From Acidisoma sp. PAMC 29798 (lineage in GTDB: Bacteria; Pseudomonadota; Alphaproteobacteria; Acetobacterales; Acetobacteraceae): a stretch of DNA of 64,000 nt. This document shows, in pieces, positions 59,374 to 64,000 of this stretch (positions are counted from its first letter, which is position 1; every line of letters begins with the position of its first letter). The translations under genes were made by a program, and so were the position numbers. Under the pieces are notes generated by a model. That model made no database searches. It was not told the DNA's origin and was given only the letters and a program-made list of their open reading frames with translations. The DNA lies in NCBI RefSeq assembly GCF_030252425.1, contig NZ_CP126994.1, forward strand, positions 2,599,001-2,663,000, read 5' to 3'.

Positions 59374-60616
59374 GACGAAGCGCCTCGACCGGATCGGTGC
59401 GCGCCGCGCGCCAGGAGGGATAGAGCGTCGCCAGCAACGACAGCGCGAGGGCCATGATGATGACGTCGGTCACCTCATTCCAATCGAGCACAGCCGGAAG
59501 CTGCTCCAGGAAATAGACGGTGGGATCGAACAGCGTCGTGCCGGTGATGCTCTGCAGGAACTGCCGGATACGCTCGATATTGGCGCAAAAGACCACACCG
59601 AGGATGAAGCCGATCCCCGTGCCCGTAACGCCGATGGAGGCGCCGGCCATCAGGAAGATGCGCATGATGGCGAAACGCCCGGCGCCCAAGGTGCGCAGCA
59701 CCGCAATATCCCGCGTCTTGTCCTTCACCATCATGATCATCGAAGAAATCACGTTAAAGGCCGCGACGATGATGATCAGCGTCAGGATCAGGAACATCAC
59801 GTTCCGCTCCACCGTGACGGCAGCGAAGAAACTGTCATTGGATTGCTGCCAGTCAATCACCTGGATGGGTGATCGGACCAACGCCTGCCGGATCTCCGTA
59901 TTCACCGCGCCGACCTGATCGGGATGCGTCACCATCACCTCGATCTGCGTCACGCCGGCCGAGGAAAAGAAGGTCTGCGCCGCCGCCAGGGGCATGAAGA
60001 CGAAGGTGGAATCATATTCCTGCATGCCGACATTGAAGATGCCGACAACCTTGTAGGCGCGGATGCGCGGAATGGTGCCGATGGCCGTGGCATTGCCCTG
60101 CGGCGAGACGAGCGTCACGTTCGAGCCGAGTTGCAGGCCGAGTTGCCGCGCGAGGCCGCTGCCCACGATCACCGCATTGTCGCCCGTCACGTCATCGATC
60201 GAGCCTTGGAGCAGATGATCGGAGACCGAATGCAGCCCCTTGAGGTCGGGCAGCGTGATGCCACGCACCACACCGCCGACCGCGCCGCCATGATCGCCGG
60301 TGAGCAGCACTTCATTCTGCAAGACGGGCGCAGCCGAGGCGACACCCGGCAAAGCGCGGATCTTGCCCGCCATGGCATCGTATTGCGTGATCTGCGTGCC
60401 GCCGGCGCCATAGACGCCAAGATGGCCGTTCAGGCCGAGGATGCGTGACAGCAGCTCTTCCCGAAAGCCGTTCATCACGCTCATGACGATGATCAGCGTA
60501 GCGACGCCCAGGGCGATGCCGATCAGGGAGAAGATGGCGATGACGGAGACGAAACGCTCCCCCTTCCGGGCGCGCAGATAGCGCCCGGCGACCATACGCT
60601 CGAAGGATCCAAACAT
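59366..60616 (-). CDS. lolC: Lipoprotein-releasing system transmembrane protein LolC/LolE
   Basis: 416 residues. An N-terminal helix ([20 protein letters not shown]) precedes a large periplasmic domain, then three C-terminal helices, with the FtsX-like segment [20 protein letters not shown]. Only one such gene is present, so a homodimer with LolD is likely, as in many alphaproteobacteria. Its ATG shares one base with the proS stop (TGATG). Confidence 0.93.
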
Positions 60617-61950
60617 CAGGCGGGCTTCGCGCTCAGCGATTCCGTGACGCGGGCCATCGCCTCGTCGAGCGTCAGTTCCTCACGCTCACCGGTTGCGCGG
60701 CGCTTGAGTTCGACGCGCCCGGCGGCGGCACCGCGCGGCCCGATGATGATCTGCCAGGGATGGCCCATGAGATCTGCATCGGCGAACTTTACGCCCGCAC
60801 GCTCCGAACGATCGTCGTAGAGGGCGACGGCTTGGAGCTTGCCGTAGACCTCCTCGCACATCGCATCGGTTGCCGCGTCGCCCTGCTTGAGATTGAGGAT
60901 ACCGACGGCGAAGGGCGCCACACTGTCTGGCCAGATGATGCCGGCTTCGTCATGACTCGCCTCGATCAACGCGCCAACCATGCGGCTGATGCCGATGCCG
61001 TAGCTGCCCATTTCGGGGAAGGTTTTTTGGCCGTCGGGGCCCACGACCGAGAAGTTCATCGCGGCGGTGTATTTGGTGCCGAAATAGAAGATGTGGCCGA
61101 CTTCGATGCCACGCCCTTCACGGCGACGATCAGCGCCCACCGCGTCCCACGCCGCAGTGTCGTGCTTCTCCTCGGTCGCGGCATAGTGGGTCGTCATCGT
61201 CTCATAGAAACGGCCGAGATCGTCGGTATTCGCGATGTTGAAATTCGACGCGCTGTAGTCGATGTCTTCGAAAGCCGCGTCATAGAAGACCTGGCTTTCA
61301 CCGGTCGGCGCCAGGATGATGAACTCATGGCTGAGATCGCCGCCGATGGGGCCGGTATCGGCGACCATGGGAATGGCCTTCACGCCGAGGCGCTGGAAGG
61401 TGCGCATATAGGACAGCATCATCTTGCGGTAGCTGATGACCGCGCCCTCGTAATCGAGGTCGAAGCTATAGGCGTCCTTCATGAGGAATTCGCGGCCGCG
61501 CATCACGCCGAAACGCGGGCGCACTTCGTCGCGGAACTTCCATTGAATGTGATACGCGATCTGCGGAAGTTCCTTATAGCTGCGCAGCGACTGGCGGAAG
61601 ATGTCGGTGATCATCTCCTCATTGGTCGGGCCATACAGCAAGTCGCGCTCATGCCGGTCCTTGATGCGCAGCATTTCCTTTCCGTAATCCTCGTAGCGGC
61701 CGCTTTCCTGCCACAGGCTCGCGGGCTGGATCGTCGGCATCAGAACTTCCTGGGCACCGGCCGCGTTCTGCTCCTCGCGCACGATATCGGCGATATTGTT
61801 GAGCACGCGCAGGCCGGCGGGCAGCCAGGCATAGATGCCGGCGGCCATCTGGCGCACGAGGCCGGCGCGCAGCATCAGGCGATGCGAGGCGATCTGCGCC
61901 TCGGCGGGCACTTCCTTGAGGGTCGGGATCAGGCTTCGGGACAGGCGCAT
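60616..61950 (-). CDS. proS: Prolyl-tRNA synthetase
   Basis: 444 residues, class II synthetase without the usual INS editing insertion; this short form is common in alphaproteobacteria. Motif 1/2 region reads [20 protein letters not shown], with the earlier [20 protein letters not shown] start. Motif 3 is [14 protein letters not shown], and the C-terminal anticodon-binding domain begins about residue 345. Misacylated Ala-tRNA clearance presumably depends on a separate protein. First gene of proS-lolC-lolD. Confidence 0.96.
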
Positions 61951-61983: not shown

Positions 61984-63030
61984 CTAAAGGTCCGGGCGCC
62001 TCGCCGCCAGAGAGCGAAGCGCGGGGCGCTCCACCAGCGTGGCGACGATCCAGGCGAGGAGCAGGACGCTGGCGAACATCGCGACCAGCCAATAGGACGA
62101 GGACTCGGTCGGATTGAGATGCGTGGTCGCCCAGATGCGGGCGAATACCAGTTCGACGGGCGTATAGACCATGTAGACGGGATAGGAGAGCGCGCCGAGG
62201 GCGACGAGCCCCGGCACCGAGGTCAGGATAGGCGCGCGAGGCGTGGCCAAGGTCCAGAGCAGGCACCATAGGCCCGCGACCGTCACCGCATCGCCCAAAG
62301 CGAAGCCGAGGGCGAGCAGAAAAGCCCCCGCCGTGCCGGGTATCCAGGCGGGTGGCCTGCGCGGCAGAAGGTGCAACAGGCGCACGAGCAGAATGCCTGC
62401 CGCGAACTCCGGAAAAAACCGCAGCAGCGCGCCGTGGTAACTGAGGTTGAGGCCAGAGGAGGATGTTCTGTCCACGACCTCAAGGCAAGCCACTCCGACA
62501 GCGAGGGCTGCGATGGTGCCGCGTCTATCGAACCGGAAGGCCGCCCAGGCGCCCAGTGGAAAGAGAAGATACCCCGCCCATTCGACGCTGATCGACCAAG
62601 ATGGATAATCCCAGGTCCAGCCCCGGCTGAATCCCCAGCCGTTCAGGAGAAGGATTTGGAGAAGCAATTCGTGGCCGTCCGCGCGCAAGGCGTGGTGCGG
62701 TCGGATGCCGCCGGCGCTCGCCGTGAGATAAGCGACGGCCAGAAGAAGCAGGACCGCCAGATGCGTCGGATAGAGGCGAACCAGCCGCTTCCACCAGAAC
62801 TGCGCATAGGCCGAAACGGTCTGCGGCGGGTCGGGATGACGATGCGTCAGGACGAAGCCGGACAGCAGGAAGAAGCCGTCCACGCCCAGATAGCCATGGC
62901 CGATGACCCCGCCTGCCCCAGCGAAATCGAGATGCAGATTCGCGTGATAGGCGAACACCCAGAGGGCCAGCACACCACGTGCCGCCGTCAAATCGGGCAG
63001 GTCGGCACGACGGTCATCGAGTGCTGACAC
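61984..63030 (-). CDS. Acyltransferase 3 (OafA/YrhL-like) family membrane protein
   Basis: 348 residues from GTG 63030; a frame extending to 63204 adds sequence that overlaps the small RNA candidate and is unlikely to be translated. About ten hydrophobic segments. The family's N-terminal motifs are seen: DLTAARGVLALWVFAYHANL with the conserved catalytic His, then GYLGVDGFFLLSGFVLTHRH. Members O-acylate LPS, exopolysaccharide or other envelope glycans. No partner genes are next to it. Confidence 0.88.
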   Translation of the reverse strand: MSALDDRRADLPDLTAARGVLALWVFAYHANLHLDFAGAGGVIGHGYLGVDGFFLLSGFVLTHRHPDPPQTVSAYAQFWWKRLVRLYPTHLAVLLLLAVAYLTASAGGIRPHHALRADGHELLLQILLLNGWGFSRGWTWDYPSWSISVEWAGYLLFPLGAWAAFRFDRRGTIAALAVGVACLEVVDRTSSSGLNLSYHGALLRFFPEFAAGILLVRLLHLLPRRPPAWIPGTAGAFLLALGFALGDAVTVAGLWCLLWTLATPRAPILTSVPGLVALGALSYPVYMVYTPVELVFARIWATTHLNPTESSSYWLVAMFASVLLLAWIVATLVERPALRSLAARRPDL

Positions 63031-63141
63031 GGGCTGGACTTCGGTATAATGCGATGACTTCGTTAATGCATAAGTGTCTGTAAACTTGCGAGAAAGTCGT
63101 TCGATAACGACAATAACGCGTGACAGCCAGATGTCGCGCGG

Positions 63142-63178
63142 ATAAAGAAAAGGCCCGCGCGCAAATGCGCAGCGGGCC
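63142..63178 (-). terminator. Rho-independent terminator of the small RNA candidate
   Basis: On the minus strand, GGCCCGC and GCGGGCC form the outer stem, continued by TGCGCATTTGCGC, then TTTTCTTT follows. A textbook terminator orientated toward the acyltransferase gene, about 112 bases before its start. Confidence 0.85.
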
Positions 63179-63237
63179 AAGTTTAGGGAGGAAACGCCAG
63201 TCACACGGCAGAACGAGGATCAACCTCATCCGTGACT
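63144..63237 (-). ncRNA. Candidate trans-acting small RNA, about 90 nt
   Basis: Minus-strand order: promoter TTGGAC (63269-63264), 18 bases, CATTAT (63245-63240); predicted start about 63237 or 63233; a stem CCAGTC/GACTGG with an inner GAGG-TTGAT-CCTC hairpin; a single-stranded part containing TTTCCTCCCTAAA (63194-63182), which is anti-Shine-Dalgarno; then the terminator. Alphaproteobacterial sRNAs with exposed CCUCCC motifs (for example CcsR-type and alpha-r14-type RNAs) are known, and this has the same architecture. I cannot assign it to a named family, and expression is unproven. Confidence 0.55.
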
Positions 63238-63359
63238 GGATAATGAATTTTCTGATCCGAGGCGTCCAACAAATTTAGTGGCCTCGTTTCGGTATTTTGT
63301 ATGATTTAAGCGCGACGTTGCTCGAAATATAATCAAGCAAGAACATTTGCCCAGAAACT

Positions 63360-63395
63360 AAGCAGGCCACCGCGAGGTGGCCTGCTTTTGTGTTT
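63360..63395. terminator. Terminator with GCGA tetraloop
   Basis: AGCAGGCCACC-GCGA-GGTGGCCTGCT, 11 perfect pairs capped by a GNRA-type loop. The T run (TTTTGTGTTT) is on the plus strand; on the minus strand only TAGTTTCT follows. It is nonetheless the nearest candidate for ending the minus-strand gene at 63494. Confidence 0.8.
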
Positions 63396-63412: not shown

Positions 63413-63442
63413 GGCGGATAACGCTCCGCTCATCCGCCCTAC
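63413..63442. repeat. Dispersed repeat family B, inverted partner at 63.4 kb
   Basis: GGCGGATAACGCTCCGCTCA followed by TCCGCCCTAC. The reverse complement of the unit at 63458-63487, 15 bases away, with one base difference in the core. Confidence 0.8.
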
Positions 63443-63457
63443 AAACCCACGCGAGTG

Positions 63458-63487
63458 GTAGGGCGGATGAGCGCAGCGTTATCCGCC
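63458..63487. repeat. Dispersed repeat family B, intact copy
   Basis: GTAGGGCGGATGAGCGCAGC followed by GTTATCCGCC, identical to the copy at 26839-26868. Ends six bases from the stop of the last gene. Confidence 0.8.
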
Positions 63488-63493
63488 GTTAGG

Positions 63494-64000
63494 TCAGCGC
63501 TTCCACCACCCGGACCGCTTGGCCGGGGCGGGCGTGCCCTCACCGATAATCACCGGCTTGATCACGGGCGCTGTCACGACCGGCTCAGGCTCGGGGGTCG
63601 GCTCGACCAAGGCTTCCGCCACAGGCTCGGCGACAACCTTCGCAGCGCGCGTGCTGACACGGCGTTTGCGCGGCGCGGGTGCCACAACCTCGGCAACCGA
63701 TTCAGCGACCACTTCAACCTCCGCGACGGGCACCGGCTCGGCTTCAACCACCGCGACCTTGGCCTTACGAGGACGCGCGACCCGACCACGTGTCGCTTTC
63801 ACGGGAGCAACCTCAACCGGGGTCGCTTCCGTCTCGTCCGAAACGGCGACTTCCACAGGCTCCGCGATCACGGCCTCGGACAGAACTGCCTCGGCGATGG
63901 CGGCTTCGGCCGCGACCTCTTCCTGCACGTCGGCCAAAGCGACCGCCTCATCCACCGTCTCACGCTCCACGGCAACCTGGATCGGTGCCTTGGTCACGAA
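63494..64000 (-). CDS. C-terminal fragment of an acidic, Val/Ala/Glu-rich protein, probably ribonuclease E tail (5' part outside window)
   Basis: The frame is open to the window edge, so the Met at 63997 need not be the start. The visible 168 residues are Ala/Val/Glu/Pro-rich and disordered, with basic islands (RGRVARPRKAKV, PRKRRVSTRAAKV). The end, PVIKPVIIGEGTPAPAKRSG followed by WWKR, resembles the short conserved terminus of alphaproteobacterial RNase E, whose C-terminal half is otherwise unstructured and recruits degradosome partners. A cell-envelope or nucleoid protein of similar composition is possible. Confidence 0.5.
   Translation of the reverse strand, partial: FVTKAPIQVAVERETVDEAVALADVQEEVAAEAAIAEAVLSEAVIAEPVEVAVSDETEATPVEVAPVKATRGRVARPRKAKVAVVEAEPVPVAEVEVVAESVAEVVAPAPRKRRVSTRAAKVVAEPVAEALVEPTPEPEPVVTAPVIKPVIIGEGTPAPAKRSGWWKR

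Follow-up and report, generated by a model that had tools for sequence, protein, structure and literature searches.

MmgR of Sinorhizobium meliloti is, according to the accessible parts of the literature, the first characterised αr8 RNA and the sole copy of this family in its genome (PMC12559287), compared with four copies in the host studied here. It is 77 nt long, depends on Hfq and carries an anti-Shine-Dalgarno motif, as in our reading of the present locus, and it limits PHB in Sinorhizobium, with NtrC/AniA regulation (PMC7143759, PMC8401924, as far as their available sections go). SuhB of Sphingopyxis granuli TFA, a 61-nt RNA, shares the name of the Rfam family and is likened to our locus by its published description only. 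The accessible part of that description has it binding a 5' UTR and lowering ThnR translation with Hfq, its target being thnR of tetralin breakdown (PMC6563040).

SisA-D of Caulobacter crescentus are likewise compared by description: they carry the same 10-mer UUUCCUCCCU, a weak preceding hairpin and a terminator, and stand as four dispersed copies (PMC12559287). In the available sections of this source, SisA represses mRNAs through UUUCCUCCCU with Hfq, the motif pairing upstream of the start codon (tested by point mutation in E. coli that carried Caulobacter Hfq), and is in turn sequestered by the sRNA CrfA. An FGase gene is given there as the usual αr8 neighbour, not as a defining feature, and adjoins sisA (PMC12559287); it was found beside none of the four copies of our host, where PF05013 matches lie at 1.42 and 1.87 Mb of contig C1.

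An αr8 RNA gene in Acidisoma sp. PAMC 29798

Positions 63240-63142 on the minus strand of the window (the whole 64,000-nt stretch of DNA that was analysed) have the layout of an sRNA gene, in which a promoter is followed by a 5' hairpin, the exposed UUUCCUCCCU and, last, an intrinsic terminator. A first-pass annotation made from the letters alone had proposed this arrangement, and every part of it was located. It had also suggested an Rfam search, in which RF00519 (suhB/mmgR) was the sole match above cut-off in the whole window among 4227 families scanned (63137..63216, minus strand; 46.5 bits, gathering score 41, E 2e-06), which makes the RNA an ordinary further member of a family already described, a link that the annotation had not made. 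It is notable mainly for its conserved position ahead of a tRNA-synthetase gene. Rfam describes RF00519 (suhB) as "Makes More Granules Regulator RNA", and its alignment of the window copy shows the common core GGCGUUUCCUCCCUA.ACUU. Among the features of αr8 RNAs, a UUUCCUCCCU core predicted to be single-stranded, a weak hairpin before it and a Rho-independent terminator were found; window copy and Rfam family share the UUUCCUCCCU seed, the UGCC/GGCG stem and the terminator, but the former has a longer conserved block, CUGCCGUGUGACUGGCG, on the 5' side of the seed. Matches to mir-2545, MIR1437, isrD, NmsRb and a betaproteobacterial sRNA all stayed under their gathering scores in the window and were taken as chance or as due to an inverted repeat.

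The AbcR (αr15) RNAs have partial homology to RF00519 and are characterised in the accessible part of the source as tandem RNAs of about 115 nt with three stem-loops and two CU-rich anti-Shine-Dalgarno motifs beside lsrB (PMC7143759). We rejected this assignment: the window has one RNA with one CU-rich motif (judged by eye), and its neighbours are rne, an acyltransferase gene and proS. The Rfam clan rule could mask a weaker αr15 match behind that to RF00519. The earlier claim that no protein-coding explanation fits the region was nearly right. Two mechanical ORFs do run into it (61984-63204 and 63014-63229); a coding explanation through the first was rejected, its acyltransferase domain sitting below about 63000.

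The promoter consists of a -35 element TTGGAC (63264..63269) and, after an 18-nt spacer, a -10 element CATTAT (63240..63245), both on the minus strand, which would place the transcription start near 63233-63238. It agrees with the E. coli sigma-70 consensus at 7 of 12 positions (counted by eye), and a consensus promoter scan of the window did not report TTGGAC-N18-CATTAT. Weak as it is by consensus, the promoter is supported instead by the conserved position of TGGAC, found 73-77 nt 5' of the seed in 18 of the 32 loci aligned below and in 1 of 160 control windows. The full pattern TTGGAC...[CT]AT[TA]AT is present in 4 of the 32; of the 5 loci that belong to the window's genus, the window's own counted, 4 have CATTAT.

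Further along the minus strand, the 5' hairpin GGAUGAGG/CCUCGUUC (63211..63231) is supported by folding and covariation and is followed by a small hairpin UGCCG...UGGCG (63195..63210) directly 5' of the seed, which is nearly invariant in the consensus fold and corresponds to the UGCC/GGCG stem of the Rfam consensus. The seed itself, the anti-Shine-Dalgarno 10-mer UUUCCUCCCU (63185..63194, from the Rfam alignment), occurs once within the 64-kb window; its predicted probability of being unpaired is 0.82-0.92 over the ten start sites tried, and ranges from 0.48 (at L131) to 0.95 across the 32 loci. Folding and a terminator scan agree on the intrinsic terminator GGCCCGC...GCGGGCC with its U-rich tail (63142..63178; stem 63178-63152, tail 63151-63142). 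The 128-nt stretch as a whole has a folding energy of -50.2 kcal/mol, compared with a shuffle mean of -35.1 (z -3.74; none of 200 shuffles as good).

Conservation and spread of the proS-linked type

Comparisons were made with 20 fetched stretches, of which one was the window's own and 19 surrounded longer, usually secondary RF00519 matches among relatives, and with 80 named proS loci, 18 of which contain the exact 10-mer and 14 of which are this sRNA. The remaining four were omitted, with the 10-mer apparently inside a coding stretch in L044, L053 and L054 and with different surroundings in L077. Rows of the alignment had to contain the 10-mer, and 18 fetched stretches and 14 named proS loci made up its 32 rows; of the fetched stretches, L120 was excluded for a single change in the 10-mer, as was L132, which evidently comes from the contig of L038.

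Across these rows, columns 115-146 of the window row include 25 invariant positions, 6 conserved in at least 90% and one that is A in 28 rows and G in 4, so that the 32-nt conserved block around the seed reads CUGCCGUGUGACUGGCGUUUCCUCCCU(A/G)AACU. This is more than the 10-mer that the accessible part of PMC12559287 gives for αr8 RNAs. The CCTCCC element singled out by the first-pass annotation is part of the αr8 10-mer and persists in all but one of the 20 fetched loci (19) as well as in the 14 named proS loci. The expected conservation of the stems was likewise borne out, as both the 5' hairpin and the terminator covary in the 32 loci: changes on both sides were seen at 7 of 8 pairs of the 5' helix and at 4 of 9 pairs of the terminator stem. 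Overall, 94.3% of cells pair, and 11 of 22 pairs show such double changes. The covariation score was 0.273; shuffles gave 0.147, with none of 500 reaching the observed value, and sliding the partners gave 0.07-0.10. The score is favoured by the fact that the structure came from the same alignment. The small hairpin before the seed lacks support from covariation because hardly any variation exists there. The five loci from the window's genus lack the simple outer pairs that the 5' helix has in most other loci, and there the outer helix can pair as CAGUCA(C/U)/GUGACUG (CAGUCAC/GUGACUG in the window).

The host genome has four RF00519 matches above cut-off, at 1.05, 2.66, 3.59 and 4.31 Mb, and the window copy scores 46.5 bits versus 54-59 bits for the other three. 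These stand near an alaS-like frame (as we would name it from its sequence) and a Crp-type regulator (L001), near a Hint-domain protein (L002) and near a gene with a haem-peroxidase domain (L003), and they read UUGGAC(G/A)UUUCCUCCCUAAACU where the window copy has its conserved block. Within this genome, the model R1 reports the window copy only.

Among 60 relatives, RF00519 was matched in 40 at E 0.001 and above cut-off in 38. With stricter filters, R1 matched 118 of 150 sampled genomes of the host's bacterial family at E 0.001. At 56 bits or more it found 95 places in 93 of these genomes (17 of which had contributed rows to the model), the next match scoring 50.4 bits, and its lower-scoring matches include canonical αr8 copies. 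On the 80 named proS loci, R1 recovered the 14 that are this sRNA with scores of 79-106 bits and added six others that reach no more than 31 bits (E up to 0.01). We regard a proS-linked αr8 subtype with a long conserved block, spread through one bacterial family, as mildly new. Our literature search, with most subscription papers outside its reach, found no paper on αr8 RNAs of Acetobacteraceae. The survey of the αr8 family by Lagares, Roux and Valverde from 2016 may already include this subtype.

As a separate observation, six genomes of the same bacterial family that are at least 98% complete (G012, G017, G026, G029, G033 and G034) gave no RF00519 match under the stricter filters. This contrasts with the range given in the available part of PMC12559287, where the αr8 family is said to be present in all Alphaproteobacteria except Rickettsiales.

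Mode of action and genomic neighbourhood

The RNA is very probably a trans-acting, Hfq-dependent anti-Shine-Dalgarno repressor of the αr8 (suhB/mmgR) family with a length of about 85-95 nt, a reading that follows from its homology to αr8 RNAs. It would be transcribed from its own promoter and brought to mRNAs by Hfq, and its CU-rich 10-mer would pair with G/A-rich Shine-Dalgarno sequences and thereby block translation. A trans-acting anti-Shine-Dalgarno sRNA was also what the first-pass annotation had proposed, and the RF00519 match supports it, given that the UUUCCUCCCU common to this family represses in SisA of Caulobacter. The host has an hfq gene (Hfq, E 5.7e-32). The seed contains CCUCC, as does the 16S-type tail GGATCACCTCCTTT, the usual 3' end of 16S rRNA, which is found once in the genome.

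Counting against this reading are the weakness of the promoter by consensus, the lack of an FGase neighbour at all four copies, the altered seeds of some loci described below and the single convincing perfect match found in a target search, where generic Shine-Dalgarno sequences will match such a seed by chance. The exact complement AGGGAGGAAAC occurs at five genome sites, three of them sRNA genes and the other two with no convincing start codon. Searching for GGGAGGAAA gave 24 sites (8 for the reversed-pattern control), including four sRNA genes; at 6 of the 20 others (L141, L145, L146, L152, L155 and L156) a start codon follows within 25 nt and opens at least 60 codons. At L146 this is a GTG 15 nt from the site (168 aa). 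Of the 20, only L145 offers a convincing perfect match to the seed close to a start codon; there GGGAGGAAA lies 4 nt 5' of the ATG of a 334-aa GFO/IDH/MocA oxidoreductase gene (PF01408) and allows nine perfect pairs at the ribosome binding site. This gene is a candidate target and a lead only, because perfect 9-mers miss most real targets.

Downstream on the minus strand follow an acyltransferase 3 gene (61984..63024; PF01757, E 4.1e-24; its start codon is uncertain and the end given is that of the stretch tested) and a gene which we take from its domains (PF00587/PF03129) and sequence to be proS (60616..61950), the usual follower of this sRNA type. Among named genomes, the closest relatives of this proS share 70-76% identity with it and come mostly from Acetobacteraceae (Acidocella, Neoroseomonas, Gluconobacter and others). 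A downstream proS on the same strand was found in 18 of the 20, namely L120 and 17 stretches that have the exact 10-mer, a rate that is not unbiased because the stretches were hand-picked as longer, usually secondary matches. Most of the 18 have no gene in between, with proS about 235-345 nt past the seed. Such an arrangement could be that of a cis-acting leader or attenuator of the proS unit, with a conditional terminator setting read-through into proS. We consider this quite improbable: 6 of the 20 stretches have an acyltransferase gene in between (five of the window's genus, the window included, and L131), proS was not found in two (L123 and L130), and the three further αr8 members of the genome stand elsewhere.

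That the RNA is mainly a sponge or decoy, its UUUCCUCCCU pairing with other sRNAs and repressing few mRNAs directly, is very improbable; αr8 RNAs do pair with the sRNA CrfA in Caulobacter, but in that system it is SisA that represses and CrfA that acts as the sponge, according to the accessible part of PMC12559287.

Upstream, the 3' end of a gene which we named rne (ribonuclease E) from its sequence occupies 63494..64000 of the minus strand; its open frame extends past the window (1065 aa), and its C-terminal part has no Pfam match. Two elements lie between it and the sRNA. At 63360-63387, a perfect 12-bp hairpin AAGCAGGCCACC/GGTGGCCTGCTT was called a terminator on the plus strand only and has a weak tail in the direction of rne. 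At 63413-63487, two inverted 30-nt arms, 97% complementary, hold GGGCGGATGAGCGNAGCGTTATCCGCC. Allowing up to 2 mismatches, the genome contains 94 copies of this repeat, 44 in forward and 50 in reverse orientation, against 0 for a reversed control. Some copies face each other in pairs, and the repeats make up a REP-like family.

It is extremely unlikely that the RNA is merely a 3' UTR or processed remnant of rne with no gene of its own, an alternative the first-pass annotation had considered: rne does lie upstream on the same strand, with the intervening hairpin scored as a terminator on the opposite strand only, but the inverted repeat also intervenes, and rne turned up in no more than 4 of the 20 stretches (L114, L115, L117 and L118), yet RNA and TGGAC element are kept where it is absent.

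Altered copies and the proS-linked subtype

The seed is not kept everywhere: one of the 20 fetched loci, L120, carries a change in it, and so do L035, L047 and L048. In the latter three, R1 matches just upstream of proS (L047 4713-4803, L048 4713-4806 and L035 4746-4843) have a changed seed (UUUACUCCCC, UUUUUUCCCU), and in the two Gluconacetobacter loci L047 and L048 the terminator pairing is broken as well. From their sequences, these look like decaying copies of the proS-linked sRNA. The R1 match in L040 is truncated by the contig end, and in seven other acetic acid loci (L042, L044, L045, L046, L053, L054 and L056) R1 matched nothing up to E 1 and RF00519 nothing above cut-off.

Two further loci are described for their own sake. 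In Azospirillum (L077, 3086-3192), two tandem CCTCCCT elements precede a hairpin about 1.9 kb upstream of proS (R1 30.7 bits; under the Rfam cut-off), and in a member of the Rhodobiaceae (L083, 831-908), CTCCTCCCTAAACTTGG precedes a hairpin far from proS with a weak R1 match (25.1 bits).

The proS-linked copies might constitute an αr8 subtype of their own in Acetobacteraceae, in which the entire block of about 30 nt (CUGCCGUGUGACUGGCGUUUCCUCCCU(A/G)AACU) would serve as a second, more specific pairing surface beyond the 10-mer, with its GUGUGACUGG part as the proposed surface. Its position at proS might link this subtype to translation or to the supply of proline-tRNA, and the subtype would decay in some acetic acid bacteria. 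We put this forward as a speculative and rather unlikely extension of the repressor reading. Taken together, a prediction made from sequence alone has been confirmed and placed in a known regulatory family, and the gain beyond this is a modest one, a proS-linked subtype with a conserved block that is open to mutational testing.
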